A DNA stretch of 64,000 nucleotides. Source: Maribacter sp. HTCC2170 (lineage in GTDB: Bacteria > Bacteroidota > Bacteroidia > Flavobacteriales > Flavobacteriaceae). The stretch spans positions 2,600,001 through 2,664,000 of the forward strand of contig NC_014472.1 in NCBI RefSeq assembly GCF_000153165.2. The letters run 5' to 3'. Under the pieces are notes generated by a model, which was not told where the DNA came from, made no database searches, and saw only the letters and a program-made list of their open reading frames with translations. The number at the start of each line of letters is the position of its first letter. Position 1 is the stretch's first letter. The position numbers and the translations under genes are program-made. Below, one piece after another: positions 4,388 through 18,337 of the stretch.

Positions 4388-4981
4388 CTATAAACTCCAA
4401 CGATTGCCGACTTCAGAGAGTGGTTTGCATGGTTCGTAGTTACCCGGAATGGGGTCGTAGCTCAATACCTTTTCGCCTATTTCTTCAGAAGTGAAATAGG
4501 CCCATATCGCCATTGATTTCATTGAACGATAAAAACCAATGGGTTCTTGGTTACCAATGGTAGTGCCCCAAATTCTTGGATTAAATTTACCCGATGACTT
4601 TTCTTCGGCTTTTAATACCTCATCTCTTTTGGACTCATCAAGGCTAGCAAAGATAGTACCGAATTTCTCCTTACAACGATTATTGAAGGTGGTGATTTCA
4701 TTCCGCATGTTTTGCTGTCCTTTTTGGTCATAGGTTTGAGAAACTACTTTGTCAATGAACACATCTACTTTTACATCCAAAGCTCCTGGTGTATCTGTTC
4801 GTGGTAAAATCATTTCGACCAGCGTGCCTACAGTGTTGGCTTCTATCTTTGTAAAGAATTCAGGTTTCCAGGTCAATCTTGGTTCATTCTCGCAAGATTG
4901 TAGTAATGAAATCATTGTGGGCATTGCAACGGCAGCACCTGCCAATAAACCTGTTTTTTTAAGTGCGCTTCTTCTATCCAT
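4388..4981 (-). CDS. gluconate 2-dehydrogenase subunit 3 family protein
   Basis: 197 aa. The N-terminus reads MDRRSALKKTGLLAGAAVAM, a twin-arginine type signal followed by a Cys (LLQSCENEP) that could be lipidated. The rest matches the small-subunit family of membrane-associated GMC dehydrogenases (ILPRTDTPGA near residue 60). The family's role is to escort or anchor the flavin subunit and pass electrons on. It is encoded 3 nt after the GMC gene, so the two form an enzyme pair in one two-gene cassette. Export is inferred from the signal. Confidence 0.8.
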   Translation of the reverse strand: MDRRSALKKTGLLAGAAVAMPTMISLLQSCENEPRLTWKPEFFTKIEANTVGTLVEMILPRTDTPGALDVKVDVFIDKVVSQTYDQKGQQNMRNEITTFNNRCKEKFGTIFASLDESKRDEVLKAEEKSSGKFNPRIWGTTIGNQEPIGFYRSMKSMAIWAYFTSEEIGEKVLSYDPIPGNYEPCKPLSEVGNRWSL

Positions 4982-4984
4982 AAC

Positions 4985-6685
4985 CTAAAGGTTCATTTTT
5001 TTTAATTCAGATACTGCATGGTTCGCAGCTCTCGCGGTAATTGCCATATAAGTCAATGACGGATTCACGCAAGAAGAAGAAGTCATACAAGCACCATCGG
5101 TAACGAAAACGTTGTTCGCGGCATGAACTTGGTTAAATCCGTTCAGCACGGAGGTTTTTGGGTCCAGACCCATTCTAGCGGTGCCCATCTCGTGCACACC
5201 ATAACCGGGTGGGTGTTCATTGTCAAAGCCTATAATATCTTTTAATCCCGACTTTTGGAGCATTTCCACTGCATCTTCTTGAATTTGCTTATTAGCTGCT
5301 CTTTCGTTTTCCTTAAATTCTGCGTCAATTGCTAAAGTAGGTTGTCCCCATTTATCCAAAACATCAGTATTCAAACTAACTTGATTATCATGATAGGGCA
5401 AACACTCTGCAAAACCTGTAATGAAGAATTCCCACGACCCAGGTTTTAGGATGCTTTCTTTAAAATCGGCTCCAAAATTTTCGTTATTGGCAGCGTTTCC
5501 ACCGCGATATCCTCCTCCTTGATAGCCAAAGCCACGTAGAAATTTATCGTTCTTGGTTTTCTCATCTACATTCCAATATCTGGGAATATAAATTCCGTTA
5601 GGCCGTCTACCCTTATAATATTTATCATCGAATCCTTCCACTTTTCCCATGGCTCCAACTCTATAGGTATGATCCATAAGATTGTGGCCAAGTTCTCCAC
5701 TATCGTTTCCAAATCCGTTTTCAAAGCGGTTTGATTTTGAATTCAACAAAATCTGAGTTGTACTCAAAGTTGAGGCATTGCAGAAAATCACTTTGGCCGA
5801 ATATTCAATGTCTTCATTGGTCTCTGCGTCGATGATACGAACGCCAGTAGCTTTGTCCTTAGTGTCATCATAAATAATCGACTGCACTATCGAAAATGGT
5901 CGAATTGTCAATTTACCAGTTGCATGGGCTGCAGGTAGCGTAACTGAGTTACTACTGAAATAGGCTCCGTACGGGCAACCTCTGCTACATCTATTCCTGT
6001 TTTGACATTGCCCCCTTCCGTTATGTGGTACCGTTAAATGAGCACACCTCCCTATAATTAAATGCCTACTGTCAAACTCCTTTTCAATTCTACTTTTTAT
6101 ATGTTTTTCTACACAATTGAGCTCCATCGGCGGTAGAAAATGGCTATCTGGTAATTGTGGAAGCCCTAAAGGTTCTCCGCTAATACCTGCAAATTTCTCC
6201 ACATAGGTATACCATGGTTCAATATCCTTGTATCTCATTGGCCAATCTACTCCGTGACCATCTTTGGAATTTGCCTCAAAATCCAGATCGCTCCAGCGAT
6301 ACGTTTGCTTTCCCCATAACAAAGACCTTCCACCCATTTGATGGGCACGAAGCCATAAAAAAGGTTTTACTTCCGTATAAGGATTGGCCTCATCATCTGC
6401 CCAGAAATGGGCTGTATCAGTACCTACCCAATTTGAACGGATACTAACTTGGTGTTTTTTTCTTTGTTCAGGAGTCAGTCCGCCTCTTAGCTCGGTATCC
6501 CAAGGGTCTAAGTTCATGGTTGGATAATCTTTTACGTGCTCAACGATTCTGCCCCGCTCGAGAACTAGGGTTTTGAGGCCCTTTTCGCAGAGTTCCTTTG
6601 CAGCCCAGCCACCGCTGATACCGGAGCCGATAACGATGGCGTCATAGACCATATCCTTTTTTGCATCAATATTGAAATTTGCCAT
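4985..6685 (-). CDS. GMC family FAD-dependent oxidoreductase
   Basis: 566 aa from the ATG at 6685 (MANFNIDAKK). A further in-frame start at 6712 would add nine poorly conserved residues. The FAD-binding Rossmann motif is VIGSGISGGWAAKEL near residue 20. GGRSLLWGKQTYRW and RGCPYGAYFSS are typical of the sugar/polyol dehydrogenase branch, as is the C-terminal HEMGTARMG with its catalytic His. It lacks a signal of its own, so the Tat-signal partner encoded next could carry it out folded. Likely oxidises a sugar, polyol or sugar acid; substrate unknown. About 165 nt of non-coding DNA precede it. Confidence 0.88.
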   Translation of the reverse strand: MANFNIDAKKDMVYDAIVIGSGISGGWAAKELCEKGLKTLVLERGRIVEHVKDYPTMNLDPWDTELRGGLTPEQRKKHQVSIRSNWVGTDTAHFWADDEANPYTEVKPFLWLRAHQMGGRSLLWGKQTYRWSDLDFEANSKDGHGVDWPMRYKDIEPWYTYVEKFAGISGEPLGLPQLPDSHFLPPMELNCVEKHIKSRIEKEFDSRHLIIGRCAHLTVPHNGRGQCQNRNRCSRGCPYGAYFSSNSVTLPAAHATGKLTIRPFSIVQSIIYDDTKDKATGVRIIDAETNEDIEYSAKVIFCNASTLSTTQILLNSKSNRFENGFGNDSGELGHNLMDHTYRVGAMGKVEGFDDKYYKGRRPNGIYIPRYWNVDEKTKNDKFLRGFGYQGGGYRGGNAANNENFGADFKESILKPGSWEFFITGFAECLPYHDNQVSLNTDVLDKWGQPTLAIDAEFKENERAANKQIQEDAVEMLQKSGLKDIIGFDNEHPPGYGVHEMGTARMGLDPKTSVLNGFNQVHAANNVFVTDGACMTSSSCVNPSLTYMAITARAANHAVSELKKMNL

Positions 6686-6790
6686 GTATAACGTATTGCT
6701 AGTAGCCACCAAGTTAATGAATAAAACAGAAGCTCGACTTATAAATATTTAAAGAAAGAACAAGGCGAATTACTAGCATATATTTGGTTG

Positions 6791-6814
6791 GTGATTGTGA
6801 CGATCGGCAATCAC
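6791..6814. repeat. 7-bp inverted repeat upstream of the GMC gene
   Basis: GTGATTG and CAATCAC flank a 10-nt loop containing the palindrome CGATCG. It lies about 105 nt upstream of the GMC start inside the cassette. It could be an operator or a leader hairpin; nothing identifies a binding protein. Confidence 0.35.
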
Positions 6815-6850
6815 TGATTTCGAATAGAAGCAAAGTGGTGCAACATTTTT

Positions 6851-7043
6851 TACAACGGTTTAGCTATGAACAGTACGGGAGCAAACTAGCGTTTGCTTTC
6901 CGCCACACATATAGCGAAATCTTTTTGTTTTGATTTATTTTTTCTTGTCCAGAGCAAAATCCCAAAGATTTTGCGGACTTCATAAATGTACACAAACCCT
7001 GCGATTTAGCCCGAAGCCCGTATTGTTTATAGGCTGTGTTGTG
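6851..7043 (-). repeat. attC-like site of the M23 peptidase cassette (193 bp, long family)
   Basis: Ends TACAAC and GTTGTG, not matching each other. Arms TATGAACAGTACGGG and CCCGTATTGTTTATA pair with two G.T wobbles on the plus strand. Same long family as 11599-11793 and 14013-14205, sharing a T-rich centre with TTTTTTCTTGTCC and a second internal stem around AAATC/GATTT. Confidence 0.72.
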
Positions 7044-7053
7044 AAATGTTATT

Positions 7054-8028
7054 TTACTCTAGAAATCTTTTTTTGTTCTTCACAAAATCTTCTTTCTTTG
7101 GCATGTAGTCTTTCTCAATTTGTCCATTTACAATCAATTCATCGAAATAAATTTTTGCTCCAATGGTATTGAACAAATCGTCTGTATTTTGAAGTTGCAA
7201 ATGCAAATGAGCTGCATATGTGTTTCCAGAATTCCCGCATTGGGCAATTACCTGACCTTTTTTTACCGAATCTCCTTCTTTGAACAAAATTGTGTTTTCT
7301 TTAATGTGTGCAAATAGCAAGTATTCCTTCCTCGCTGTTTCTAAGATTATGGTATTGCCAGAGATATCAGTCTTATTTAACGTGCCAGGCACATTATCCT
7401 TGACTCCATCAATTACTTTTACAACCTTTGCGTCACAAGGGGCAATAATTTCTTTGCCAAAAACAAAATAGCTCTTATTCTTTGTTGCATCTCCTTTATA
7501 TGGAGCTCCATTTGCTACCATCAATATATCAAACGCATACTGCTGGCTCAAATCTTCCATATGATAATTTAAGTCCGCAGTTTCTCCACCCCAATAGACA
7601 AAAGCTTCTTCTTTAAATGGGAAAATCATTTTGGTAGCATTTCTTTTTAATATTGAGGAATTCTCCAAGCTATTTCTTGGGATAAATAAGGCAATAATTT
7701 GGTTCTTTTTATTTAATGAAAATGATATATCCACAATAGCCTTTTCAAAAGAAGTTCTGTATACATAAGCCGAATTGTTTACGTCATAAAATTCCATTGT
7801 TTTTATTGTGCCAAAATTAGACCTAACTGTATATAGAAAATCAGTCATTTTTTCCTTAGGTATGAGACTCTTCATTACTTCATCTAGCATATTATGAACA
7901 TCCTCATAATTCGATGCATTATATTTCGACTGGAACTTGGAGGCAACTTCATCAAAATTTTTATGTTCTGTTTGCGAGAAACAAAATAATGAGGTCATTA
8001 TACAAATCCTCAACATTAAATATTTCAT
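7054..8028 (-). CDS. secreted M23 family metallopeptidase
   Basis: 324 aa with a signal peptide (MKYLMLRICIMTSLFCFSQ). Residues about 25-110 form a DUF3887-like helical/beta domain. The C-terminal half is an M23 (LytM-like) domain: YHMEDLSQQYAFD supplies the first zinc ligands and AHLHLQL the HxH, with GNSGNTYAAH between. M23 enzymes cut peptidoglycan peptides, or act as inactive regulators when ligands are missing; here the ligands seem present. Stop is 10 nt before its attC-like site, start is 20 nt after the next one. Confidence 0.82.
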   Translation of the reverse strand: MKYLMLRICIMTSLFCFSQTEHKNFDEVASKFQSKYNASNYEDVHNMLDEVMKSLIPKEKMTDFLYTVRSNFGTIKTMEFYDVNNSAYVYRTSFEKAIVDISFSLNKKNQIIALFIPRNSLENSSILKRNATKMIFPFKEEAFVYWGGETADLNYHMEDLSQQYAFDILMVANGAPYKGDATKNKSYFVFGKEIIAPCDAKVVKVIDGVKDNVPGTLNKTDISGNTIILETARKEYLLFAHIKENTILFKEGDSVKKGQVIAQCGNSGNTYAAHLHLQLQNTDDLFNTIGAKIYFDELIVNGQIEKDYMPKKEDFVKNKKRFLE

Positions 8029-8048
8029 ATAGTTCTTTTTAAATATTT

Positions 8049-8178
8049 CACAACGGTTTGGCTAAGGTTCGTTGCTGTGATTCGTCCGAAGGACAATCCA
8101 GCCGAACCTAAAGATAGCTTTTTGCGCGTGATTTCCGTTTAGGGAATCCGCAAGCAATGAATTTCAGGCTTTGTTGTA
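8049..8178 (-). repeat. attC-like site of the membrane-protein cassette (130 bp)
   Basis: Ends CACAAC and GTTGTA. Arms GGCTAAGGTTCGTTGC and GCAATGAATTTCAGGC pair mostly by G.T on the plus strand with two mismatches. Nearly identical over its whole body to the site at 14760-14889, about 6.7 kb away. The membrane-protein gene's stop codon lies inside it. Confidence 0.75.
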
Positions 8179-8742
8179 ACTAGTTATTTTTATTTCCTTT
8201 CTATACAAAAGAAGCAGTAGTCCAATTGCAAAGAGTACAACACTTAGTGTTACATAAACTCTATCGTCCCATATAAAATTAGCAACTCCTGCAAGAGTCG
8301 CCCCTGCCAAGGTCATAATAGAACCTATTGGATGACTTTTTATAAAACTCCAAGAATGAGTTGCTAATCCTGCAAATAATAAAGATGGTCCGATAATCAT
8401 AAAAGGGTACCATATCGCGGGAGTTTTGCTTAAATGTTGAAATAAGTTGCTCCTACCATCATAATCATCTCCAAAACTCCAAAATATAAAGTCAATAGTG
8501 CACATTCCGATATGTCCGATAACACCTAATATTGTTAAAAAGGATGCAATAGAATTAATTTTCCCTTTCGGGAATACAAAACAAAATGAAATCAAAAATG
8601 AAGCACCAATGAGATTTAACCAATGTGCAAAATCAATAGGCTTTAAGAAAAAATCAAAATCGGAAGCCATAGAAAATAATATGTGGCTAGTAACAAAAAA
8701 AAGTAATCCTATAACACAGAAAAATTTTAATCCTAATTTCAT
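8164..8742 (-). CDS. unknown membrane protein, about six TM segments
   Basis: 192 aa, almost entirely hydrophobic (segments near residues 5-25, 38-57, 65-85, 110-130, 140-158 and 163-182). I do not recognise a family. The last codons (SYNKA, stop) are written by the attC-like site itself: the stop lies 14 nt inside it, so the final residues depend on which recombination site follows the gene. The start is 13 nt from the preceding site. Confidence 0.7.
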   Translation of the reverse strand: MKLGLKFFCVIGLLFFVTSHILFSMASDFDFFLKPIDFAHWLNLIGASFLISFCFVFPKGKINSIASFLTILGVIGHIGMCTIDFIFWSFGDDYDGRSNLFQHLSKTPAIWYPFMIIGPSLLFAGLATHSWSFIKSHPIGSIMTLAGATLAGVANFIWDDRVYVTLSVVLFAIGLLLLLYRKEIKITSYNKA

Positions 8743-8755
8743 TTTTTTAATTTGT

Positions 8756-8806
8756 TAGAACGGTCTAGTATATGAACCGTTTTAATGGTTTATATACATT
8801 GTTGTA
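8756..8806 (-). repeat. attC-like site of the erythromycin-esterase cassette (51 bp, short family)
   Basis: Ends TAGAAC and GTTGTA. Stem GTATATGAACC with GGTTTATATAC (11 bp, one G.T on plus) closes loop GTTTTAAT. Spacers between core and stem are 6 and 3 nt. Almost the same as the site at 15521-15571. This short form shows the minimal structure most clearly: core, asymmetric spacer, stem, loop, stem, spacer, core. Confidence 0.78.
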
Positions 8807-8836
8807 TGCCGTTAATGCTTATTTCTAATTTACAGG

Positions 8837-10693
8837 TTATTCTATAATTGTTATTTCCACATTATCTATCCAAACCGTGCCAAAATCACGAAGATAAATT
8901 CCATAGTGTATCATATCCGCTTTTTCATCTACCTGAGCTTCAATTTCATAGATTTTCCAATTCCTTGAGTCCACACGATATTTGTCATGACTATCAAATA
9001 GTGGTGACATTACTTCATATGGATCGCTTGAGTGGTCAGGATCAATAGATAACCTAAAAAAGGCAAAGTTAGATTCAGTAACTTCCGTCTTAGCTGCCAA
9101 TTTAAGTCGTATGGTTTTACCTCCGTAAGGCGCGGCATCTATGTACTGCCTCAGACTGGCCGTAATTTCTCCATACTTTAAGCCTTCTACACGCTGTAAC
9201 ATGGCTGAGTGTTTCCCTTTATAAGGGTCTTCATCACTGACGATCATTTTTACTCCTAACCGCTCAAACTTAGACCATGCCACCCAGCCATCTGGAATAT
9301 CTCCAGGACGGTTGTTTTCAAAATCAGTATTGGTAGGCTCATGCAATTTATGAGGATTGAGCCAAATGTGATCATAGTCTGAATCATCAATATCAACTAC
9401 TGCTGAGGTTGAATCTAAATAGATAAGAGCGTCATAGGATTTTGCTAGATTATATGGCCAGTAGAAAGGTCGTTCTTCATTGAAACTCCCTCCAGAATGT
9501 CTCGTTCCACGTTCTTGATTAAACCAATCATAAACAACGCCTTTATCTTTTATTTTACTTAGATCAATAGCCACCAAGGGCATTTTTGTCTGCGCCATGG
9601 TGTGCTCAAAGAGTTCTGCAGGAGCCGGTCCTACAGAAAAATCATGGATTCCTTTTGAAGGAACACCTAAGTCTATGGCTCTAAAATCACCTTGGTTAAA
9701 GAAAAAACCAACTATTTTTAAATCATCGCCATACATTTTTTTCAGATTAAATCCCATGTGGTTGACACCTTCAAAAGAAGCATTGGATACATGTGTATTA
9801 TGTGCCCATGTTATCATCTTAGCATCCTTACCTTCATGATCCATAATCCATTTTAAATTCTGAGCCTGACCAAGATCCCTAACGTTATTGTAGTTTTCCA
9901 TTTCGTTCAAATTTGAATTGATTACAATTTCTACTTGTTGTGCATGCTGTTTAGCTAGTTTCCATTCTGTGTCACTGGAGTTTTGAACATATTGCTCCTT
10001 GTTTTTATCAAATGAATCCATCACAAGACTAATTTTTTGAACGGATGATGAATCGTAATCTTCAGGTATCCATTGCCGAATTCCGATAAATTCAGGATTT
10101 GAATAAGGTATTTCTAGTGTGCCTAGTTCTGGGCGAACTTTCTTTTCCAAGGCTGGGTCAACTTTAGCCAAGTATTCCAGCATAACTCTGACTGCTCTTT
10201 CTGGGTGCTGTGGGTCAAATCCATAGAGCTTAACTTTTTTCTTATGGTCAGGGTCTGCATTGTATTCGCGCATCCATACAATAAGGTCGAGAACTTCCTT
10301 AGTTTCCCATGACCACATATAAGTACCAGCTAGTGCTTTTTCAGGATCTCCTATGCCATCTACTACGTACCGATTGATATCGCGAGCTGCGCCAAAAGGA
10401 CATTCAAGTGCGAAAATGTTAAAGCCTTTTTTCTCTACCAGATATTCAATCATCCGATGTTTAAGTTGAAATACCTCGCGATTTCCGTGAGTAGGTTCGC
10501 CTAGGGATACGATACGAGCATCACCAATCATTTCACCGATTGGTAATAGGTCTTCAAATCCATTTCCAGGTTCTACACTGCTTATTTGAATTGCATTCTC
10601 AGATATCCATTCAGTCACGTGGTCTTCGGCTGATTTCTCAGCACAGGAAACCAATAATAGAAGGGCTAATAATAGGTTCGTTTTAACTGTCAT
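8837..10693 (-). CDS. erythromycin esterase family lipoprotein
   Basis: 618 aa. Lipoprotein signal ends at LLLVSC (Cys17). The erythromycin-esterase-like domain covers about residues 30-440: GEPTHGNRE (H69), ALECPFG (E97) and TWAHNTH (H298/H301) supply the His/Glu catalytic set of the Ere family. About 160 C-terminal residues form a beta-rich extra domain not found in classical EreA/EreB. Ere enzymes open the macrolide lactone; the wider family also contains succinoglycan-biosynthesis-type proteins, so resistance is possible but not shown. The ereA gene is known as an integron cassette in Proteobacteria, a suggestive parallel. Start lies 33 nt from the preceding attC-like site. Confidence 0.85.
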   Translation of the reverse strand: MTVKTNLLLALLLLVSCAEKSAEDHVTEWISENAIQISSVEPGNGFEDLLPIGEMIGDARIVSLGEPTHGNREVFQLKHRMIEYLVEKKGFNIFALECPFGAARDINRYVVDGIGDPEKALAGTYMWSWETKEVLDLIVWMREYNADPDHKKKVKLYGFDPQHPERAVRVMLEYLAKVDPALEKKVRPELGTLEIPYSNPEFIGIRQWIPEDYDSSSVQKISLVMDSFDKNKEQYVQNSSDTEWKLAKQHAQQVEIVINSNLNEMENYNNVRDLGQAQNLKWIMDHEGKDAKMITWAHNTHVSNASFEGVNHMGFNLKKMYGDDLKIVGFFFNQGDFRAIDLGVPSKGIHDFSVGPAPAELFEHTMAQTKMPLVAIDLSKIKDKGVVYDWFNQERGTRHSGGSFNEERPFYWPYNLAKSYDALIYLDSTSAVVDIDDSDYDHIWLNPHKLHEPTNTDFENNRPGDIPDGWVAWSKFERLGVKMIVSDEDPYKGKHSAMLQRVEGLKYGEITASLRQYIDAAPYGGKTIRLKLAAKTEVTESNFAFFRLSIDPDHSSDPYEVMSPLFDSHDKYRVDSRNWKIYEIEAQVDEKADMIHYGIYLRDFGTVWIDNVEITIIE

Positions 10694-10726
10694 TAATATT
10701 AAACTATCGGATTGTACTTAATGGCA

Positions 10727-10849
10727 TACAACGTGTTCGTGTATGGCTTGTGCCGTTTTAGGGTTTGAGTGAGTTACACAAAATTTATATAATTTAAAGA
10801 TAGATAAATTTTAGTGTATGCAGAGGCATGGGCTATACGCGTTGTTGTG
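10727..10849 (-). repeat. attC-like site of the VIT1-transporter cassette (123 bp)
   Basis: Ends TACAAC and GTTGTG. Arms CGTGTATGGCTTGTGCC and GGCATGGGCTATACGCG form a 17-bp stem in which all five non-Watson-Crick positions are G.T on the plus strand and A.C on the minus strand. Terminal sequences match the site at 3278-3404. Confidence 0.75.
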
Positions 10850-10858
10850 TGTAGTTTT

Positions 10859-11575
10859 TTAACCAACATTTACATTAAACAAATATCCCACTAAAGCAGT
10901 CAATCCCATTGCCACAGTTCCCCAGAATGTAATACGAAGAATTGCTTTTCCAATACCAGAGCCACCCGCTTTGGCTGCCAATGCTCCCAAAATTATTAGA
11001 AAAAACAGTGCAAAACCGTACAATGAATATTCCATACTCTCTAATGGAAGAAAGAGAGTGACAAGAAAAGGAAGTAAACCGCCTACTGTAAATGCTCCTC
11101 CGGACGCCAATGCAGCTTGCATAGGCTTGGCTTGACTAATTTCATTAATTCCCAATTCGTCCCTAACATGAGCTCCTAATGCATCGTGTTCGGTTAATTC
11201 TTCAGCCACTTTTCTGGCAGTTTCTTTTTTCAGACCTCTTTTTTCATAAATTTCCGCTAGTCTTTGTAATTCGATTTCGGGCATTTCTTTTAGTTCTTGC
11301 TTTTCACGTTCAATGTCGGCTTTTTCGACATCTGTTTGTGAGCTTACTGAAACATATTCCCCAGCTGCCATTGATAAGGCGCCAGCAACTAAACCTGCTA
11401 ATGTTGCCAAAATCACTGGTTCTCTAATATTACTCGCAGCAGCGACACCAATCGCAATACTCGCAGTTGACAAAATTCCATCATTAGCTCCTAGGACAGC
11501 AGCTCTTAACCAATTGCTTCTTTGAATATAATGTGGATCTAAATAATCATCTATTTCCTCTAATTTTTCTGCCAT
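10859..11575 (-). CDS. VIT1/CCC1 family iron/manganese transporter
   Basis: 238 aa. SNWLRAAVLGANDGILSTAS near residue 19 is the conserved first helix of the VIT1/CCC1 family. A second conserved stretch is GALSMAAGEYVSVSSQTDVE. It is followed by the cytosolic helical metal-binding region rich in Glu (about 85-140) and three C-terminal membrane segments. The family moves Fe2+ or Mn2+ out of the cytoplasm. Intact, normal length. Starts 23 nt from the preceding attC-like site. Confidence 0.9.
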   Translation of the reverse strand: MAEKLEEIDDYLDPHYIQRSNWLRAAVLGANDGILSTASIAIGVAAASNIREPVILATLAGLVAGALSMAAGEYVSVSSQTDVEKADIEREKQELKEMPEIELQRLAEIYEKRGLKKETARKVAEELTEHDALGAHVRDELGINEISQAKPMQAALASGGAFTVGGLLPFLVTLFLPLESMEYSLYGFALFFLIILGALAAKAGGSGIGKAILRITFWGTVAMGLTALVGYLFNVNVG

Positions 11576-11598
11576 CTATACTGTTTATTCAAATTACA

Positions 11599-11793
11599 CA
11601 CAACCGCTTGAGCTAAGCGTAGTGCGGAGGCAAGGAAACTTTTCGTTTCCGTCTGCCGACGAAGCTAAAGCTTACTGTTTAGTTTTATTTTTTCTTGTCC
11701 AAAGCTAAATCCATAAGATTTAGCGACTTTATAAATATAAACAGACCTTTAGATTTCGCCCTAAAGTCCGCATTACGTTTAGGTTTTGTTGTG
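11599..11793 (-). repeat. attC-like site of the DUF6090 cassette (195 bp, long family)
   Basis: Ends CACAAC and GTTGTG. Arms CTAAGCGTAGTGCGGA and TCCGCATTACGTTTAG pair with two G.T wobbles on the plus strand. The central T-rich block matches those at 6851-7043 and 14013-14205. Its arms also resemble the attI-like hairpin at 16728-16753. Confidence 0.73.
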
Positions 11794-11799
11794 CTTTCG

Positions 11800-12543
11800 T
11801 TATTTTTCTAATTCTTTTTCAATATCGGTTTTTAATTGGTTTAAAGTCGTTCTAATTTGCTTTAATTGCAATATATATTCATCGTATTTTTTCTGTTGAA
11901 TATCCAAAACCCAAAGAAAATCTTGATTGTTTAAAATATCAATTTCTTTTAGATTAAAGTGAAGATTTTTGCTGCCGTCTTTATGAAGAATAGGAATGAG
12001 GTTTAGGGATTTATGTTCAAATTTTGAAATTTTAGGTTTACTTTCATCGTATAGAATATTGGATGAATGAGTATATAACGGAAGTTTTACTGTGTAGGCG
12101 TTATTGATTGCTGTTCTTAAGGAATCGTTACTAACAATATCTAGCCCAGAGGATTTTAGGTCTTCAAATGGGCCATTGTCAAACCTTAAAAAGATATCTT
12201 GACTCATATTCGTATAAAAGTCGATGAAGAGCGAATCCTTGGTTTCTTTTTTGTCAAAAATATGGCTGAAAAGACTATCTAGGCCTCTTTTTTTTCTTTC
12301 AATCCTAGGGCCAGAAAAACTTTCATAAGCTTTTAGGTCCGAATTTATGGATGTAAGAAGCTCTTTTAGAATGACTGTTTCTTTATTTTTTATTTTGCGT
12401 TTTTCATTCCAATTATTTATACTTAAAGCAATTAAAATTCCAATAACAACAAGGATTATTTCTCCAATGGCATATTTAAAATACTTCCCGGTTTTATTTT
12501 TTTCCATAAGGTCGTAGCGGATTTTTCTGAAGAATTTTATCAT
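11800..12543 (-). CDS. DUF6090 family membrane-anchored protein
   Basis: 247 aa. The N-terminus (MIKFFRKIRYDLMEKNKTGK, then YFKYAIGEIILVVIGILIAL) is diagnostic of a flavobacterial family with one membrane segment followed by a long helical periplasmic or cytosolic tail. NNWNE follows the membrane segment. Function is unknown for the family; paralogues are often numerous in Flavobacteriia. The tail is Lys/Glu-rich and predicted coiled coil near the C-terminus. Cassette start 25 nt upstream of the ATG. Confidence 0.8.
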   Translation of the reverse strand: MIKFFRKIRYDLMEKNKTGKYFKYAIGEIILVVIGILIALSINNWNEKRKIKNKETVILKELLTSINSDLKAYESFSGPRIERKKRGLDSLFSHIFDKKETKDSLFIDFYTNMSQDIFLRFDNGPFEDLKSSGLDIVSNDSLRTAINNAYTVKLPLYTHSSNILYDESKPKISKFEHKSLNLIPILHKDGSKNLHFNLKEIDILNNQDFLWVLDIQQKKYDEYILQLKQIRTTLNQLKTDIEKELEK

Positions 12544-12568
12544 TGGTTAGCGGTTAGTCATAATGAAG

Positions 12569-12696
12569 CACAACGGTTAGTATATGCAAAGTAGGCGATT
12601 GAGGGCTTCGAACCTATTGGACAGTTACGAAGTTGAAGCGGGTTGCAACCTTTGAATTTACTACTGTTACGCCTATTTTGTATATACATTGTTAGA
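12569..12696 (-). repeat. attC-like site of the alpha/beta-hydrolase cassette (128 bp)
   Basis: Ends CACAAC and GTTAGA, clearly not matching each other. Arms GTATATGCAAAGTAGGCG and CGCCTATTTTGTATATAC form an 18-bp stem whose only two non-canonical pairs are G.T on the plus strand. The termini match the 51-bp family, so this is a long-loop version of it. The hydrolase stop codon lies inside. Confidence 0.75.
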
Positions 12697-13980
12697 AACA
12701 GTATTTATCCAATCTTCTATCGTTCCCAAATAATCAGGATGCAATTTAGACCAATAAGGAAAATCGCTTTCTCCAATTTTATACATTGAATGAGAGGCTC
12801 CTTCTAATAACACGTTTTTATAATTATCATTATCTGATTTTGCTAGTGCCGCTGAAATGATTTCATGACTATTTGCTGGTATTATTTCATCCCTTGTCCC
12901 TTGCAGAATCAAGATTGGTTGTTTTGTTCTTTGAAAATAAGAAATAGGACTGTAGAGAAGTTTTTTATCTATTTGAACTTCATCCAGATTTGGCACCCAT
13001 ACATTGGCAAACCATGAATTAGATTTTGCATTATCTATGGCCTTTTCTAAATCTGTTCTGGATAGTTTACCTGCTATAAATTCAAAAACCTTTCGTTGAA
13101 ATTTGGTTGCGGCTTCAATTTCATTTCCGATTGTTTCTGCATTTCTATTTTTCCAATAATTTAAATCGCTTTCGAGCAATGAAACTCCGGGGCAACTTAC
13201 GGCAACACCATATTCTAGACTTTCTAATTCATTTAAGACATACGGTATTTTAGTAGCTCCTTGGCTACTACCTTTAATTCCAATGTTCGTAAGTGAAATA
13301 CCTGTCTTATCAGAAAAAAACTTGATTGCATTGATATCATCCTCCACAAGTTCCTCAATCGTAGCTATTTGCCAATCGCCTTCCGAATTTCCAGTCCCTC
13401 TTTTGTCATAATGAAACGTTGTAAATCCCCTTTGTGCAAATAGCTTAGCCTCTGCTCTTGAGGCACTCCGGTCTGCATTGCCAGATGAAGTCAGAATTAC
13501 TATTCCCTTATTCCCTTCATTTTTAGGATACCAAATAGTTCCATTTATTTTTAATTCATTGGATTCGAAACTAACATCCTCATTTTTGGGGTTTTGGTTA
13601 TTACTTGGCAATTCCTTTTCTAAAGTGTAAGGAACTGTAATTGAGTCTACAGTAAGAGCTCCCTGAAGTTTGCTGTTATCTTCAATCCATTTGTTTCTGA
13701 AAGAGTAAGTATAAAAATCACTTTGCAATTTAAAATTTATAGAATCACCCATTGATTCGATACCTTGAAAAGGAATACGATTTGCATTTTGTTCTAAACT
13801 CGTAAATAAAACATTGAAACTGACAGAATCTCGCTCTATTTCGAATAGTATCTTATCGGAAAAGTTACCATGTTTAAATATTCCGCTAAAGTTCCCTGTC
13901 TTTTCATCATTTTTAATTCCCGAATTGGGATCACAAGAAAATATTCCAAATGCAATGAAGACGATTATTATCCTTTTCAT
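12673..13980 (-). CDS. alpha/beta hydrolase lipoprotein
   Basis: 435 aa. Signal ends at FGIFSC (Cys16), so it is a probable lipoprotein. A beta-rich N-terminal domain (about 28-130) precedes an alpha/beta hydrolase fold: the nucleophile elbow is GIKGSSQGA, the acid is in LQGTRDEIIP and the catalytic His in GASHSM. HYDKRGTGNSEGDW is the usual strand-4 region. Likely an esterase or peptidase-like enzyme in the periplasm; substrate unknown. The last residues (NNVYTK) and the stop are encoded by the attC-like site. Confidence 0.83.
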   Translation of the reverse strand: MKRIIIVFIAFGIFSCDPNSGIKNDEKTGNFSGIFKHGNFSDKILFEIERDSVSFNVLFTSLEQNANRIPFQGIESMGDSINFKLQSDFYTYSFRNKWIEDNSKLQGALTVDSITVPYTLEKELPSNNQNPKNEDVSFESNELKINGTIWYPKNEGNKGIVILTSSGNADRSASRAEAKLFAQRGFTTFHYDKRGTGNSEGDWQIATIEELVEDDINAIKFFSDKTGISLTNIGIKGSSQGATKIPYVLNELESLEYGVAVSCPGVSLLESDLNYWKNRNAETIGNEIEAATKFQRKVFEFIAGKLSRTDLEKAIDNAKSNSWFANVWVPNLDEVQIDKKLLYSPISYFQRTKQPILILQGTRDEIIPANSHEIISAALAKSDNDNYKNVLLEGASHSMYKIGESDFPYWSKLHPDYLGTIEDWINTVSNNVYTK

Positions 13981-14012
13981 ATGTTAAGTATTTAATTTCA
14001 TGTTATATTGTT

Positions 14013-14205
14013 TCTAACGGTTGAGCTATGAACAGTACGGGAGCAAGTTAGCACTTGCATTCCGCCACGCAATTAGCCAAACCTTTTTGTTTTGCTTTTT
14101 CTTTTTTTATTTAACGCTAAATCCAAAAGATTTGGCGGTGTTCGTTGATATACCAGGTTTATATCTTAAGCAGCCAAGCCCGTATTGTTTATAGGTTGTG
14201 TTGTA
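14013..14205 (-). repeat. attC-like site of the cupin cassette (193 bp, long family)
   Basis: Ends TCTAAC and GTTGTA (not matching each other). Arms TATGAACAGTACGGG and CCCGTATTGTTTATA are identical to those at 6851-7043, while the interior has diverged. Two G.T wobbles on the plus strand. Confidence 0.72.
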
Positions 14206-14234
14206 CGCTGGCATTTCCGTCCGAGTGTGTTATT

Positions 14235-14711
14235 TCAATTACTTTTTAGTTTTTCAGCTACTTCATCATAATATTCCTGTGTAACTACTTCAGTCCAAGA
14301 AGTTGGTTTTCCACCACCATATAAAGCCAAATACGTTACATCACTGAACTTGGTAGAAGAATGCCAATGTTCGATGTCTTTCTCACATTTAATTACATCG
14401 CCTTTTTTCAAAATTACAGGCTCATTTCCTTTCTCCTGATAATAGGCTTCTCCCTCTACAATTATTAAGACTTGCGCTGTTCCATGTTTATGCCAGTCCA
14501 AGGTTGAGTTGGCTTTAAAAGTTGCTTTTGTAATATTATAACCCAATTCCTCATCATCGTGGATAATAGCATTCAACCAAGCTTCTCCGATATAATGAGT
14601 ATTTGGTGCTTTTGTTCCCTCCGTTAAATAGGAGGATACCTTGTAATCTGAGTTTTGGGAAAATACAGATACAGAGGTTAAAATTAATAGGAGGAAAATT
14701 GATTTTTTCAT
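14235..14711 (-). CDS. secreted cupin domain protein
   Basis: 158 aa from the ATG at 14711 (MKKSIFLLLILTSVSVFSQ, a clear signal peptide). A longer in-frame start at 14807 lies inside the attC-like site and is rejected. The cupin core holds metal ligands in LDWHKHGTAQVLIIVEGEAY and a second His in DIEHWHSS. Single-domain cupins bind metals and act as dioxygenases, isomerases or binding proteins; the family resembles carboxymuconolactone-decarboxylase-associated cupins but substrate is unknown. The gene lies in its own cassette with a 48-nt leader. Confidence 0.82.
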   Translation of the reverse strand: MKKSIFLLLILTSVSVFSQNSDYKVSSYLTEGTKAPNTHYIGEAWLNAIIHDDEELGYNITKATFKANSTLDWHKHGTAQVLIIVEGEAYYQEKGNEPVILKKGDVIKCEKDIEHWHSSTKFSDVTYLALYGGGKPTSWTEVVTQEYYDEVAEKLKSN

Positions 14712-14759
14712 TTTCTTGATGTTATATATTTCTTGTTTGTTCCGATTTTCATGCTTGCG

Positions 14760-14889
14760 TACCACGGTTGGGCTAAGGTTCGTTGCTGTGATTCGTCCGA
14801 AGGACAATCCAGCCGAACCTAAAGATAGCTTTTTGCGCGTGATTTCCGTTTAGGAAATCCGCAAGCAATGAATTATAGGCTTTGTTGTG
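14760..14889 (-). repeat. attC-like site of the unknown-lipoprotein cassette (130 bp)
   Basis: Right end GTTGTG; left end is TACCAC, the only site where the AAC core has changed. The body is nearly identical to 8049-8178 (a handful of differences in 130 nt), although the flanking genes are unrelated. Confidence 0.73.
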
Positions 14890-14890
14890 T

Positions 14891-15469
14891 TTAGTGTTTT
14901 TGTTCCAAATTAGTCAATTCCTGTCCTCGTTCTGAATCCACTCTAAATAGTTCATATTTGCTTTGAAAGGCCGTTGCTCCGTCCTGGTACATATCCATCC
15001 AAACTTTAATACCAGAATCGGTTTTCATTAAATGGTAACCATGCATGTGTAATTCATCATGAGTCTTTGTATTACCTACTTCTCCAACACAAAGGAAATT
15101 AAGGTCACCTTCGTCTTCTGAAGTAACTGCTATAAGATTCGGTTGATTCTGTAATTGACAAAAATGATTAGCTCGTAAAATTCCATTGTCAAGATTATAA
15201 ACCGTTAACATTTCTGTTGGAATATCGGTTCTTAATCGTTCAATTATTACTTTATCCCTTGCACTTAAAATATATTCAAATCCGTATGTGCTTTGGTCAC
15301 CATCAAGTACAGCAATCCATTTTCCTTCGAGCCCATTGAGAAACTTCATCGCATCTTCAGTATTCGTAAGAGAATTTTGGATTTCAGATTGTTTATTGGT
15401 ACAACCATAAAAACTTAAGAGGATTGTAAGAATGGCGAAATATAGTATTCCATATTTTTTGGTTTTCAT
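14891..15469 (-). CDS. unknown lipoprotein (192 aa)
   Basis: Signal ends at LSFYGC (Cys22), predicting lipidation. The mature part begins with a coil (NSLTNTEDAMKFLNGLEGKW) followed by a beta-rich domain with GLEGKWIAVLDG at its start, in the style of small lipocalin-like or DUF1579-type folds. HMHGYHLM and WMDMYQDG are the most distinctive later motifs. I cannot name the family with confidence. The stop is 1 nt from its attC-like site. Confidence 0.7.
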   Translation of the reverse strand: MKTKKYGILYFAILTILLSFYGCTNKQSEIQNSLTNTEDAMKFLNGLEGKWIAVLDGDQSTYGFEYILSARDKVIIERLRTDIPTEMLTVYNLDNGILRANHFCQLQNQPNLIAVTSEDEGDLNFLCVGEVGNTKTHDELHMHGYHLMKTDSGIKVWMDMYQDGATAFQSKYELFRVDSERGQELTNLEQKH

Positions 15470-15520
15470 AGTTTGGTTTATGAATTAATAATTCAATTTA
15501 GTAGATTTTGTCACATTAAA

Positions 15521-15571
15521 CACAACGGTCTTGTATATGAGCCGTTTTAATGGCTCATATACTTTGTTGGC
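15521..15571 (-). repeat. attC-like site of the serine-hydrolase cassette (51 bp, short family)
   Basis: Ends CACAAC and GTTGGC (not matching each other). Perfect 11-bp stem GTATATGAGCC / GGCTCATATAC with loop GTTTTAAT. Spacers are 6 and 3 nt. This is the first attC-like site after the recombinase end. The serine-hydrolase stop codon lies inside it. Confidence 0.78.
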
Positions 15572-16700
15572 AGCAGTTTTTAAAATATTCATCAATTATT
15601 GTATATGCTTTATCCACTAGATTTTCTTTAAATAGGATATCGTTATTAGTAAAAATCACAATGGTAAGCGGTCTTTCAAATTCAAAAATAGACCAGTTGT
15701 TAACCCCATAATATAATCCAGCCGATACAGCCATATCGTCAAACACTTCCCATCCCATGGCATACGAAGAATTTTTTCCTTTTAAAGTTCTCATGTCTTC
15801 AGAGTGTAATTCAATATTCATCGAAATCGGTTTGAATATTAAATCATGGAACTCTGGCGTTAATATTTTCTTATCCCGAAGTGCTTCAACATATTTACTA
15901 TAATCTTCAAGATTTGTATAAATGCCTCCAGCTCCAACAAGGTCATCAACAACTTGACCCTCCATGGTTTGCCAGTTCAATAGACTATCCCTTTCATAAC
16001 ATAAGGCCTTCTCTTTTATGATTTGTGATGCTGACATATCGATAAATGAAGTTGAATTCATTCCAATTGGATTAAATATTTCATTTTGCATAAATTCACG
16101 AAATGAAGTGTCTGAAACAATTTCAATAATTCTAGTAAGGACATAATACCCTCCGTTATTATATTCAAATTTGCTGCCTGGTTTGAAATTCAAGCTGTCA
16201 TTTTTAGAATACCATTCAATTGCATCCTTATTACTAGGAAAATTTGAAGATTCCCAATGGTCTTCAAAAACATATTCCACGTCCTGAATACCAGAAGTAT
16301 GAGAAATCAGTTGATTAATCGTAACATCTCTAAATACTGGATACGGAATATATTTATAGACAGAGTCCTTCAAATCTAGCTTTCCCTGTTCTAGTAAGCG
16401 TAAAATACCTAATGCTGTGAACTGTTTAGCAAGGGAACCAGACCTCATGTTAGTAGTTGCTTTTATAGGTAGACTTTTATTTAAATCGCTCAATCCATAA
16501 CCATTGGTAATTATTTTTTTTCCTTCGAAGGAGACTAGTATTGCCGCCCCTGGAGTATTATCATTGAAATATTGATTAAATAATGAGTCTATTTTTACTT
16601 CAAGCAGTCCATGGTCAATAGTTGAATCAGTTTCTTTCTTCTTTACTTCTCCACAAGAAATCAAATACAATCCTGCAAGTATGTATAGTATATATTTCAT
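15555..16700 (-). CDS. serine hydrolase, beta-lactamase-like lipoprotein
   Basis: 381 aa. Lipobox ends at LYLISC (Cys16). The class C beta-lactamase/DD-peptidase-like fold carries the SxxK motif in RSGSLAKQF (S89, K92), the YxN motif as YNN at Y180, and NQLISHTSGIQD. The third motif (HxG/KTG) is not obvious, as is usual for esterase-like members. It probably cleaves a D-peptide or ester in the periplasm; beta-lactamase activity is not implied. This is the first cassette next to the attI-like site, so it should be the most recently inserted one if the system follows integron rules. Confidence 0.82.
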   Translation of the reverse strand: MKYILYILAGLYLISCGEVKKKETDSTIDHGLLEVKIDSLFNQYFNDNTPGAAILVSFEGKKIITNGYGLSDLNKSLPIKATTNMRSGSLAKQFTALGILRLLEQGKLDLKDSVYKYIPYPVFRDVTINQLISHTSGIQDVEYVFEDHWESSNFPSNKDAIEWYSKNDSLNFKPGSKFEYNNGGYYVLTRIIEIVSDTSFREFMQNEIFNPIGMNSTSFIDMSASQIIKEKALCYERDSLLNWQTMEGQVVDDLVGAGGIYTNLEDYSKYVEALRDKKILTPEFHDLIFKPISMNIELHSEDMRTLKGKNSSYAMGWEVFDDMAVSAGLYYGVNNWSIFEFERPLTIVIFTNNDILFKENLVDKAYTIIDEYFKNCCQQSI

Positions 16701-16710
16701 TAATTAGTCA

Positions 16711-16760
16711 AATTGCTGCCAACAATTGGCTAAGCGTAATATTACGTTTAGCCCTTTTTT
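16711..16760 (-). other. attI-like recombination site with terminal hairpin
   Basis: Only one core is present: GCCAAC at 16718-16723. Next to it is a hairpin, 16728-16753, with arms GGCTAAGCGTAAT and ATTACGTTTAGCC (one G.T on the plus strand). The arms resemble the arms of the site at 11599-11793, so it looks like an attC whose loop and second core are lost, or an ancestral attI. It lies 7 nt past the recombinase stop. A T run follows the hairpin on the plus strand only, so it would not end the recombinase transcript; read-through into the first cassette is possible. Confidence 0.6.
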
Positions 16761-16767: not shown

Positions 16768-17895
16768 CTAATCTAATGGATTTTTAATGTTTTCAAAAGT
16801 ATTTGTAGCAACATGGGTGTATATTTCAGTTGTTTTGGTCGAACCGTGACCTAAAAGCACCTGGATATGTCTTAAATCTGTACCTGACTCCAATAAGTGG
16901 GTAGCAAAACTATGTCGTAAGACGTGAGGGGTGACTCGTACTCGAATTCTTGCTCTCTCAGCAGCTGATTTTACAATACTCAATACACTCTCCCCACTAT
17001 ATTTTTTCCCATACCTTCCTTCAAAAAGATATACTTGTGGCCGATATTTAGTGAAGTAAAGCCTTAAATCGTGAAGGCATGTTTTAGACAGTAAAGTTTG
17101 TCTATCCTTATTACCTTTAGAATCGGAAACATGAATCAACATTCGTTTACTATCCACATCATTTATTTTTAGATTCAATAGTTCACTACGCCGCAAACCT
17201 GACCCATATAGTAACTGTACAATACACCTATGCTTAATATTATTGGTGTTTTCAATGATAGTAAGTATCTCATCTTTTGAAATTACCTTAGGTAGTTTAG
17301 ATTCCTTTCTGGGTCTTTCAATCTCATAAAACCGATTAGGCATTCCCAAAACAACTTCATAGTAAAACTTGATAGCGTTTATTGATTGGTTTAGATAGGA
17401 ATTGGAAACATTCCTGTGTATCAGTTTTTGAAGAAAAGCCCTTATGTCACTTTCATTGATCGCATTCAGTTCTTTGTACTTATAATGATTGATGAACAGT
17501 TCAAAAAAGGACACGTAGGTGCGAACTGTGCTGTTTGCATACCTTTTTAGTTCCAGTTTTAATAAATACTCTTCTGGGCATAACCTGTATTCAGGTATCG
17601 GCTTCCTTTTCCTGAACCACTCGATATCAACAGTCCCATTATTGGTGTTGACAGGTTTGTTTGTTAAAAACCGGTTGTAGTTTATCCAGACTGTTCCCTT
17701 GAAAGTATTGAATATAATTCCAAGATTACCCTTTGTATTGGAGATATAGGCCATGTTGTGCAGCTTACTCCATTTCGGATTTGGAAGACCTCTGATTAAG
17801 CCCTGTATCAACTTATCGGGGGAAAATTTAATGCCTATCATCTTTTGATTGTTGATCATAAGATGGTAAAGTGTTATCGATTTTAAAGTATTCAT
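16768..17895 (-). CDS. tyrosine recombinase, putative cassette integrase
   Basis: 375 aa. Residues 1-100 form an N-terminal extension not present in XerC/D. A SAM-like core-binding domain covers about 103-185 (CPEEYLLKLELKRYANSTVR) and the catalytic domain about 200-375. The full catalytic set is present: R235 (GSGLRRSEL), K260 (DSKGNKDR), H324 and R327 (TPHVLRHSF), H350 (LLGHGS) and Y359 (EIYTHV). Only 64 residues separate K260 from H324, the XerD spacing; IntI proteins carry an extra 20 or so residues there. The last residues IKNPLD resemble the tails of IntI proteins. It is transcribed toward the cassette array and its gene ends beside the attI-like site. Family identity is firm; the role in cassette shuffling is inferred from position. 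Confidence 0.88.
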   Translation of the reverse strand: MNTLKSITLYHLMINNQKMIGIKFSPDKLIQGLIRGLPNPKWSKLHNMAYISNTKGNLGIIFNTFKGTVWINYNRFLTNKPVNTNNGTVDIEWFRKRKPIPEYRLCPEEYLLKLELKRYANSTVRTYVSFFELFINHYKYKELNAINESDIRAFLQKLIHRNVSNSYLNQSINAIKFYYEVVLGMPNRFYEIERPRKESKLPKVISKDEILTIIENTNNIKHRCIVQLLYGSGLRRSELLNLKINDVDSKRMLIHVSDSKGNKDRQTLLSKTCLHDLRLYFTKYRPQVYLFEGRYGKKYSGESVLSIVKSAAERARIRVRVTPHVLRHSFATHLLESGTDLRHIQVLLGHGSTKTTEIYTHVATNTFENIKNPLD

Positions 17896-17947: not shown

Positions 17948-18337
17948 ATGCGATTAAAAATGACTATGATTAAAAACTGTCCGGTGTGTGGTGTAGCCTT
18001 AAAAGGAAGATCTGATAAGAAATTCTGTTCCACAAAATGCAAATCCATACAGCAGTATGAGCAGCGTCAAGAAACTGAAGTTTTTTACCTAAAAGTGGAT
18101 AGGCAGTTAAGGGTCAATAGAAAATTGTTAAAGCGATATAATAAATCTGGTTTCACTACAATTAGAAAATCCGAACTTATCTCTCAAGGATTCAATCCTA
18201 AATTCTTCACCCACTATTGGAAGAACAAAAAAAATGAGGTATATCTTTTCGTTTATGAATATGGATTTTTGAGAACCAAAAACAACGGAAAGGAAAAATA
18301 TGTTTTGGTCACTTGGCAAGAATATATGGCAAAATAG
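17948..18337 (+). CDS. small zinc-finger protein divergent from the recombinase
   Basis: 129 aa (or 123 from the internal ATG at 17966, giving MIKNCPVCG, which fits the motif better). The N-terminus holds CPVCG and CSTKC, a four-cysteine zinc finger. The rest is basic with RKLLKRYNKSGFTTIRKSEL, then a compact C-terminal part rich in Tyr/Trp. It looks like a nucleic-acid-binding protein; I do not know a named function. It is divergently transcribed from the recombinase with 52 bp between the two starts, so the two could share a control region. Confidence 0.7.
   Translation: MRLKMTMIKNCPVCGVALKGRSDKKFCSTKCKSIQQYEQRQETEVFYLKVDRQLRVNRKLLKRYNKSGFTTIRKSELISQGFNPKFFTHYWKNKKNEVYLFVYEYGFLRTKNNGKEKYVLVTWQEYMAK

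Follow-up and report, generated by a model that had tools for sequence, protein, structure and literature searches.

What does a tyrosine recombinase without the insertion of integron integrases (IntI) do at the head of a long array of genes that all read in one direction and are separated by hairpin-forming spacers? The question arises in a stretch of 64,000 nucleotides (nt) from Maribacter sp. HTCC2170 (contig NC_014472.1, positions 2,600,001 to 2,664,000), which we call the window and in which position 1 is the first letter. There, a minus-strand gene at 16768..17895, delimited with the list of open reading frames (ORFs), Pfam, alignments and fold comparison, encodes a 375-amino acid (aa) enzyme with an ATG start, the cassette recombinase. 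A first reading of the same letters, the original prediction, had suggested that this enzyme might handle folded sites in a second way, with an extra N-terminal domain in place of the IntI helix. We consider it probable (roughly 0.87) that the enzyme serves as integrase in an integron-like system of cassette capture in Bacteroidota, one that would work without the IntI-specific I2 helix.

Complementary cassette ends and bottom-strand folding

Directly downstream of the recombinase lie 13 complete cassettes, of which 12 have a single main ORF and the other has two. Their main ORFs, from 16700 down to 425, are all on the minus strand, in the direction of the recombinase, with hairpin-forming spacers between them. 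On the array strand a cassette opens with GTT(N7)A; it closes with (N7)AAC, followed by an inner stem, a variable-length loop, the matching inner strand and the CGTT of the next cassette. The array extends past the start of the window, where five further matches to R1, a covariance model built from 50 sites for the folded bottom strand, lie within 5 kb (locus L113). A repeat search with a minimum length of 20 returned two similar spacers (D1) and did not reveal the site family, because the arms differ between cassettes.

In the 13 cassettes of the window, the arm of a cassette's own site matches, on average, 6.54 of the 7 variable bases that follow GTT, whereas the 156 non-own pairs used as a control average 2.87. 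When 34 loci were searched, 32 of them with sites, at least six of the seven positions matched in 162/240 own pairs, against 2/240 shuffled pairs and 21/408 linear junctions. Of 262 pairs chained without any site model at 24 loci, 170 have an uninterrupted complementarity of exactly 10 positions; the set includes chance pairs, and shuffled sequence also yields short chains. A larger set of 274 cassettes, in which only matches of at least 5/7 were kept and offsets 3-9 were therefore selected for pairing while offsets 10-15 were not, gives the anatomy of the outer arm: ten Watson-Crick pairs, a bottom-strand G.T at offset 10 (84% of cassettes), then three further pairs (offsets 11-13 paired in 73-92%). 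Within this set GTT is kept, the next base is A or G in 97%, and the fifth is T in 48%, G in 39%, C in 12% and never A. By analogy with integron cassettes, such own-end complementarity is the trace that would be expected of excision and circularisation at CGTT.

The folding itself was examined in 50 of 52 diverse sites (alignment A4; L125:8259-8385 and L127:889-1013 were omitted for a misaligned start). Pairing extends over 96.4% of 946 cells, compared with at most 49.6% for slid structures, and 12 of the 19 pairs have changed on both sides, giving 157 double-change cells. The covariation score is 0.481 against 0.136 for shuffled alignments, and none of 500 shuffles reached it. The two strands are far from equivalent. 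In 162 unique sites, each 100 nt or longer, drawn from 174 linked pairs (167 unique) that were picked by own-end complementarity with symmetric scoring, G.T wobbles fall 434 times on the bottom and 10 times on the top strand. The ratio is 144:3 in the 52 sites under 80% alike, of which 49 are the more stable on the bottom strand, and 143:6 once the three richest positions are removed; the site finder used for the 34 loci and for the array L154 counts bottom wobbles as part pairs, so that its strand counts, including 1007:50, are biased. Of the 50 sites, 49 share one G.T and 36 a second. They have no constant extrahelical base, the strands of the L stem being equal in length in 29/50, with a difference of +1 in 15, +2 in three and -1 in three. 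These features suggest that the folded site is recognised on the bottom strand, as an analogue of attC, and they lend support to the original suggestion of folded sites handled without the IntI helix.

The mechanism we propose follows that of integrons. A cassette would be excised as a circle by recombination within CGTT. In that circle the site of the cassette would be an unbroken hairpin, its outer arm some 14 bp long, on the bottom strand. The folded bottom strand would then be bound by the recombinase, and the circle inserted, at attI or a different site, by exchange of one strand, with later resolution by replication. Since the outer arm is fully paired only in the circle, the recombinase may act better on free cassettes, and capture would then be favoured.

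Distribution of sites and their link to the recombinase

R1 matches 35 sites in the window's own genome at an expectation value (E) of at most 0.1: 13 in the array, groups of 7 and 6, and 9 scattered. The two groups are cassette clusters without an integrase and far from the recombinase, at 2766211-2776948 (plus strand, 7 matches) and 3192365-3201900 (minus strand, 6) of contig C1 of this genome (G000). We then took a sample of 120 genomes of the window's family, its own included, and counted sites at E <= 1e-6, among the matches listed, and recombinases at E <= 1e-40. Sites occur in 105 of the 120 genomes and the recombinase in 84; 81/84 genomes with the recombinase have sites, as against 24/36 genomes without it (Fisher p 2.7e-5). 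Contigs stop near the recombinase, or near the divergent gene beside it, in G032 (C1 and C18), G049, G075, G103 and G107. Assemblies may break at repeated arrays, which would make the recombinase counts too low.

At 37 further loci, mostly from Bacteroidota, R1 gave 45 matches in 14 loci, five of them its own training sites, and all 45 are downstream of the recombinase on the bottom strand. Loci with sites include Flavobacteriales, Cytophagales (Algoriphagus, Rufibacter, Aquiflexum), Marinilabiliaceae/Bacteroidales and Lewinella, and a Persicobacter plasmid carries a relative with two sites downstream. The span from the recombinase to the farthest site, among the matches listed, reaches about 68 kb in G040 and about 70 kb in G101. 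As a control, R1 was run on 20 loci with IntI or XerA-like enzymes and returned a single match, at E 0.97.

Traces of mobility

Another way to view the arrays is through the segments that they share. In all, 84 segments of 250 bp or more are shared or repeated at an identity of 80% or more, and 45 of them have both ends within 25 nt of a crossover, compared with a mean of 0.6 for shifted positions; between different loci the count is 6/23, compared with 0.06. A 924-bp cassette is 99.6% identical in Winogradskyella ursingii (L034) and in another genome of the window's family (L145), and these two arrays are headed by recombinases from two different clades. At locus L114 the same cassettes recur in several copies, 96-100% identical. 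At locus L115 one element is present at 11298-12851 and, as a second copy, at 8771-10324 (minus strand), each inside the CCGTT of a folded site; it has a 517-aa ORF, which encodes a DDE transposase in the one copy tested. In this it is like insertion sequences that target the attC sites of integrons.

The recombinase core resembles XerA and lacks the IntI insertion

Pfam places the Phage_integrase family (PF00589) at residues 204-364 of the recombinase (E 1.9e-38) and a SAM-like core domain at residues 111-184. The original prediction that all six catalytic residues are present is borne out, R235, K260, H324, R327, H350 and Y359 being invariant both in a 21-row alignment (A1, in which identity to the window protein is 52-78% in the other rows) and in a 23-row one (A5). 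From K260 to H324 there are 64 residues, compared with 106 in IntI1 (L139) and in L102 and L106, two rows assigned to IntI on grounds of this spacing only; the insertion of IntI is thus absent, as had been claimed. The same claim likened the spacing to that of XerD, and here it fails: the genome's own XerD (L002) has 72 and other XerC/D-like rows have 70-73, whereas about 64 is common in XerA-like and Bacteroidota relatives (mostly 62-66, with 69 in L043). The predicted likeness of the C-terminus to IntI is there (THV...IKNPLD; IntI1 ends in RSPLDALPPLTSER), but a terminus of this kind is also found in XerA-like proteins without the insertion (L083 ends in EIKKIKSPLDML), and therefore the C-terminus alone is no pointer to IntI. 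Several of the XerA-like recombinases without the insertion at loci L066-L100 (archaeal, candidate phyla radiation and alphaproteobacterial) have an IKSPL-type end. R1 finds no site at the L066-L100 loci tested, and any sites there would be of another type.

The window protein scores 210.6 with the curated IntI model TIGR02249, below its cut-off of 265, and 218.4 with the curated XerA model NF040815, a near miss of the cut-off of 220. In a structure model of the full recombinase (predicted local distance difference test score, pLDDT, 84.3; predicted template modelling score, pTM, 0.51) the best fold match of the core is XerA 5hxy (Z 25.2, root-mean-square deviation (rmsd) 12.2, 253 residues aligned), and the integron integrase 2a3v gives Z 21.6, rmsd 6.0 and 258 aligned. 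Two other proteins of this genome are among the matches listed at E <= 1e-5, L002 (XerD-like) and L003 (XerC-like), both without the N-terminal extension, and the window enzyme is the third such recombinase of its genome, in single copy.

A possible HARP/XPB-like domain at the N-terminus

The N-terminal extension noticed in the original prediction proves to be conserved, with T8, L9, I20, G21, W42, F65 and W70 invariant in A1, and AlphaFold2 (AF2) models it as a separate domain (pLDDT 90.5, pTM 0.79). From this model and from fold and profile matches we assign residues 1-80 (17656..17895, minus strand) to a putative HARP/XPB-like domain. Its predicted secondary structure, E-E-H-E-E-H-E, comprises five strands and two helices. 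The best fold match is the archaeal XPB N-terminal domain 6p66_A (Z 6.6, rmsd 2.2, 59 aligned), and the HARP domain of SMARCAL1, 4o66_C, also matches (Z 4.0, rmsd 2.9, 53 aligned). Pfam family PF07443 scores above its cut-off of 25 in L068, a relative from a metagenome-assembled genome of Spirochaetota (29.4), and below it in L058 (18.8). Foldseek alone gave the domain no match below E 0.001. Together the matches are suggestive, though not proof, of a relationship with the HARP and XPB DNA-binding domains. Profile matches place two or three tandem HARP-like copies ahead of the core in L039, L041, L043, L045, L051 and L065.

This domain and the conserved stem G.T wobbles might supply recognition and polarity, as I2 and the extrahelical bases do for IntI and attC. 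We put forward only tentatively, as something we would sooner doubt than expect, a second code for folded single-stranded sites, in which a HARP/XPB-like domain of junction or mismatch type would read the bottom-strand G.T wobbles in place of I2 and extrahelical bases, and full pairing of the arm in the circle alone would favour capture over excision. Three relatives, L027, L028 and L030, lack the HARP-like domain by profile, and their genomes carry 28, 22 and 7 site matches. The array of L028 (L154, in genome G034), with this HARP-less recombinase at its head, has own ends that match at 5.57 of 7 positions, and G034 has besides L028 only two weaker recombinase matches, in which the N-terminal part is likewise absent. 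The originally proposed replacement of the IntI helix by the N-terminal domain is thus not established: the likeness to HARP and XPB fits it, but HARP-less relatives share the same sites.

Phylogenetic position

We used two trees, both from quick searches and with row labels assigned by the analyst, the first without a phage row (L140 was left out) and the second with three phage integrases added. In the first, nine of the ten Xer-labelled rows separate with a support of 100 and the four IntI-labelled rows form one group, also at 100; the window's family falls among Bacteroidota enzymes. The IntI-labelled rows are monophyletic to the exclusion of the window's family in both trees (support by the Shimodaira-Hasegawa-like approximate likelihood ratio test, SH-aLRT, 100 and 99). 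However, constraining the family and IntI to one clade is not rejected and has a likelihood above that of the free search (approximately unbiased test, p-AU 0.70), and the same holds for joining all Bacteroidota enzymes (p-AU 0.69). Since neither constrained tree is rejected, a common origin with IntI before I2 and an independent origin are both compatible with the data. The window's family could be a sister of IntI that predates I2, and the convergence implied by a 'second way' is, with this clade at p-AU 0.70, not established.

The original prediction had named a place among ordinary phage or transposon integrases as the result that would speak against it. In the second tree, in which transposon enzymes had no row, the window's clade (13 rows, support 91) contains none of the three phage integrases; two of them, from phages of Flavobacteriaceae, stand beside another clade of the same family (support 80) and the third is placed elsewhere. 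The two are L140/L160 from Cellulophaga phage Ingeline_1 and L158/L161 from Polaribacter phage Freya_1, of 263 and 271 aa and without the N-terminal domain, and they may derive from cassette recombinases. R1 finds no site at the three phage loci, Ingeline_1 and Freya_1 having been checked within about 5 kb of the integrase. The window protein matched 427 phage records, none of which covers 80% of it.

Weighing the explanations

Several observations weigh against a cassette-capture system. No recombination event has been seen, and all inference is from sequence. Inside arrays the outer arm is mostly mispaired (linear junctions average 2.68/7), and therefore excision from an array would have to tolerate mispairing. 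Cassettes 3 and 8 of the window have imperfect ends (8/10), and R1 did not find the window site at 11602-11790. At the level of genomes, the 24 of 36 that hold sites without a recombinase match at E <= 1e-40 and the 3/84 that have the recombinase and no site at E <= 1e-6 loosen the association, as do the 23 of 37 further loci without an R1 site, some because the contig ends near the recombinase. Among the shared segments, 39/84 are not bounded by a crossover at both ends, and 16 are so at neither. The hairpin that we take for attI is matched, out of 50 shuffles, by 23 at L114, 13 at L121, 10 at L131 and 3 at L130. Cellulophaga and Polaribacter phage integrases stand, on long branches, beside another clade of the family (support 80). 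As to the N-terminal domain, the Z of 6.6 for XPB and 4.0 for HARP are both beneath the aligner's caution level, and unrelated eIF1-type folds (Z 5.1-5.9) rank between them; SMARCAL1 HARP is the second entry of a PDB profile search at a weak E of 0.072, the N-terminal parts of four proteins, the window's among them, had no HARP match in Pfam, and of seven chosen divergent relatives five gave no PF07443 match and one scored above the cut-off. Because relatives without HARP share the same sites, the domain is not strictly needed.

What else, then, could the hairpins be? Were they transcription terminators, or repeats resembling repetitive extragenic palindromes, lying between ordinary genes with the recombinase a neighbour by chance, their position between co-oriented genes would be explained, and so would the 24/36 genomes with sites and no detected recombinase. 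A terminator in the sense RNA would, however, be expected to show a wobble bias opposite to that found, since the sites fold better on the strand that is not mRNA sense (434:10). The arms pair across a whole gene with the start of the same cassette, 45/45 of the matches at the further loci lie downstream of the recombinase on one strand, and repeated units are often bounded by the crossover; and a search of window positions 1-20000 against Rfam (E <= 0.1) found only a tRNA. We regard this explanation as extremely improbable. Ordinary double-strand recombination, XerA/dif-like or phage-like, on palindromic sites whose folding is irrelevant would agree with a core closest to XerA (5hxy, Z 25.2) and without the IntI insertion, with palindromes that also fit a dimer on double-stranded DNA, and with the weak placement of two phage integrases beside a clade of the family. 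Yet seven arm positions differ between cassettes and are complementary within one, a pattern for which binding to a specific double-stranded sequence would exert no selection; wobbles are tolerated on one strand only, and the covariation is strong, so that we hold it very unlikely. An identity as a phage or transposon integrase was set aside too.

A subtler alternative is a true but divergent IntI integron that has lost its I2 helix, which overlaps with the explanation preferred here, the confidences in the explanations therefore not summing to 1. It would account for the same cassette logic and the IntI-like C-terminus, and the family and IntI as one clade are not rejected and give the higher likelihood (p-AU 0.70). 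Against it stand the four IntI-labelled rows that are monophyletic without the family, the TIGR02249 score of 210.6 below 265, equal stem strands in 29/50 sites with no constant extrahelical base, and cassette starts that do not follow the GTTRRRY core, the fifth base never being A in 274 cassettes. We think it unlikely.

Layout of the locus

Directly after the recombinase stop codon lies a putative attI on the minus strand (16724..16753), a hairpin at 16728-16753 with a spacer, followed by the crossover at G16723-TT. The hairpin has 12 pairs and one bottom G.T, and none of 50 shuffles was as good. The same order after the stop codon, a hairpin, a few bases and then GTT, is found at orthologous loci, where at most 1/50 shuffles is as good in 20 of 24. 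On the other side of the recombinase, and divergent from it, is a gene for a 129-aa treble-clef zinc protein (17948..18337, plus strand), which neighbour conservation marks as its partner: it is adjacent and divergent at 23/24 orthologous loci, and 29 of the 33 close copies in the family (E <= 2.8e-39) are beside a recombinase, the other four being in G019 and G032, where no recombinase was listed. A distant paralogue is found elsewhere in most genomes. We take the zinc protein for a probable accessory or regulatory factor of the system. Just past its gene is a tRNA-Met gene (anticodon CAT, 18492-18565); among five other loci viewed, a tRNA-Arg lies upstream at L114 and no tRNA at the remaining four, and therefore the tRNA is no conserved insertion site.

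The cassettes, numbered from the recombinase, are all on the minus strand, as are the folded sites that close them, of which R1 scores the bottom strand, here the plus strand. Gene assignments are from Pfam unless stated, and own-end matches are given out of ten. Cassette 1 (15527..16723, 10/10) carries a gene of serine hydrolase/beta-lactamase fold (15555-16700) and closes with the site 15524..15568 (R1 46.9 bits). The gene of cassette 2 (14766..15526, 10/10; site 14763..14886, 53.5 bits), at 14891-15469, has no Pfam match and, by eye, a lipoprotein-like start. Cassette 3 (14019..14765, 8/10; site 14016..14202, 42.3 bits) has a degenerate start, GTG, and a cupin gene. The listed TTG start of its ORF (14235-14807) overlaps a folded site, and an ATG at 14711, opening a signal-peptide-like MKKSIFLLLI, is likelier. 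An alpha/beta hydrolase gene (12673-13980) occupies cassette 4 (12575..14018, 10/10; site 12572..12693, 65.6 bits, among the 50 sites used to build R1) and a DUF6090 gene (11800-12543) cassette 5 (11605..12574, 9/10), whose site, 11602..11790, is placed by own-end complementarity only. Cassette 6 (10733..11604, 10/10; site 10730..10846, 63.4 bits, also among the 50) has a gene at 10859-11575 with a weak TIGR00267 match below the cut-off.

Further along, cassette 7 (8762..10732, 10/10; site 8759..8803, 51.5 bits) holds a gene of the erythromycin esterase family (8837-10693), cassette 8 (8055..8761, 8/10; site 8052..8175, 62.7 bits) one without a Pfam match (8164-8742), and cassette 9 (6857..8054, 10/10; site 6854..7040, 39.7 bits) an M23 peptidase gene (7054-8028). 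The two ORFs of cassette 10 (3962..6856, 10/10; site 3959..4080, 64.9 bits) encode a GMC oxidoreductase (4985-6712) and a Gluconate_2-dh3 protein (4388-4981). Cassette 11 (3284..3961, 9/10; site 3281..3401, 65.4 bits) carries a YHS-domain gene (3414-3941), cassette 12 (1878..3283, 9/10; site 1875..1998, 95.2 bits) an adenylate/guanylate cyclase gene (2008-3192) and cassette 13 (293..1877, 10/10; site 290..413, 85.3 bits) an amidohydrolase gene (425-1858).

Relation to known systems and significance

With integrons (IntI, attI, attC) the system shares a tyrosine recombinase beside a tandem cassette array, a mostly uniform direction of ORFs, sites that fold on the bottom strand with a crossover within GTT and an outer arm complementary to the cassette's own start, large arrays, and clusters of sites far from the recombinase. 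It differs in having a HARP/XPB-like N-terminal domain and no I2 helix, and conserved G.T wobbles but no constant extrahelical base. The outer arm comprises 10+1+3 pairs, seven of its bases vary, and complementarity runs over about 14 positions, more than the seven bases of the integron core. That core site, GTTRRRY with the complement RYYYAAC, is short and conserved, and it is not followed in the window's family. Here, moreover, a hairpin that follows the stop codon is the attI candidate, the integrase is co-directional with the array, and a gene for a zinc protein is divergent from them. Integron integrases are described as reading extrahelical bases of the folded site (PMC3053210). The reverse integron of Treponema denticola also has its integrase gene co-directional with the cassette array, but the account of it in PMC4909258 describes the integrase as an IntI, and by that description it is set apart from the present enzyme, which has no IntI insertion.

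Of the other systems compared, the XerA and archaeal Xer-like enzymes (NF040815; 5hxy, 4a8e) have the best core fold, no insertion and K-H spacings of 62-66 in archaeal rows; the window enzyme differs by a score below the cut-off, an N-terminal domain and arrays of folded sites, none of which R1 found at the XerA-like loci tested. HARP (SMARCAL1, UvsW) and the XPB N-terminal domain have in common with it five strands, two helices and profile and fold matches, but here the domain is fused to a tyrosine recombinase and not to a DNA translocase, and sequence similarity is weak in the window protein. Because the system departs from IntI integrons in the I2 domain, the constant extrahelical bases, the core sequence and its placement outside IntI, we do not file it among them, and take it for a new form of the integron principle, known here from sequence alone.

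Integrons have been reported in Bacteroidota before (PMC8618304, PMC2426708), and the IntegronFinder 2.0 paper names a single complete one in Bacteroidetes, that of Salinibacter ruber M1 (PMC9024848). According to PMC9668308, IntegronFinder calls an IntI with a pair of profiles, of which one is for the IntI-specific domain; it would therefore pass over the window's enzyme. PMC8138268 states that the insertion is not fully conserved within an integron-like subgroup; enzymes such as the window's may already be inside that subgroup, with their arrays undescribed. No description of such a cassette system was found in the literature searched, whose coverage leaves out bioRxiv and most subscription journals.

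If our reading holds, a gene-capture system that is widespread has so far gone unnoticed, its sites being present in 105 of the 120 genomes sampled from the window's family. In PMC4792948, I2 is said to be unidentified in other Y-recombinases, and its origin together with attC is called a chicken-and-egg paradox. That question would become testable, given a lineage that has folded sites with neither I2 nor a constant extrahelical base. Should the family prove to be the sister of IntI, folded-site recombination would have preceded I2, which would answer the chicken-and-egg question of the integron.

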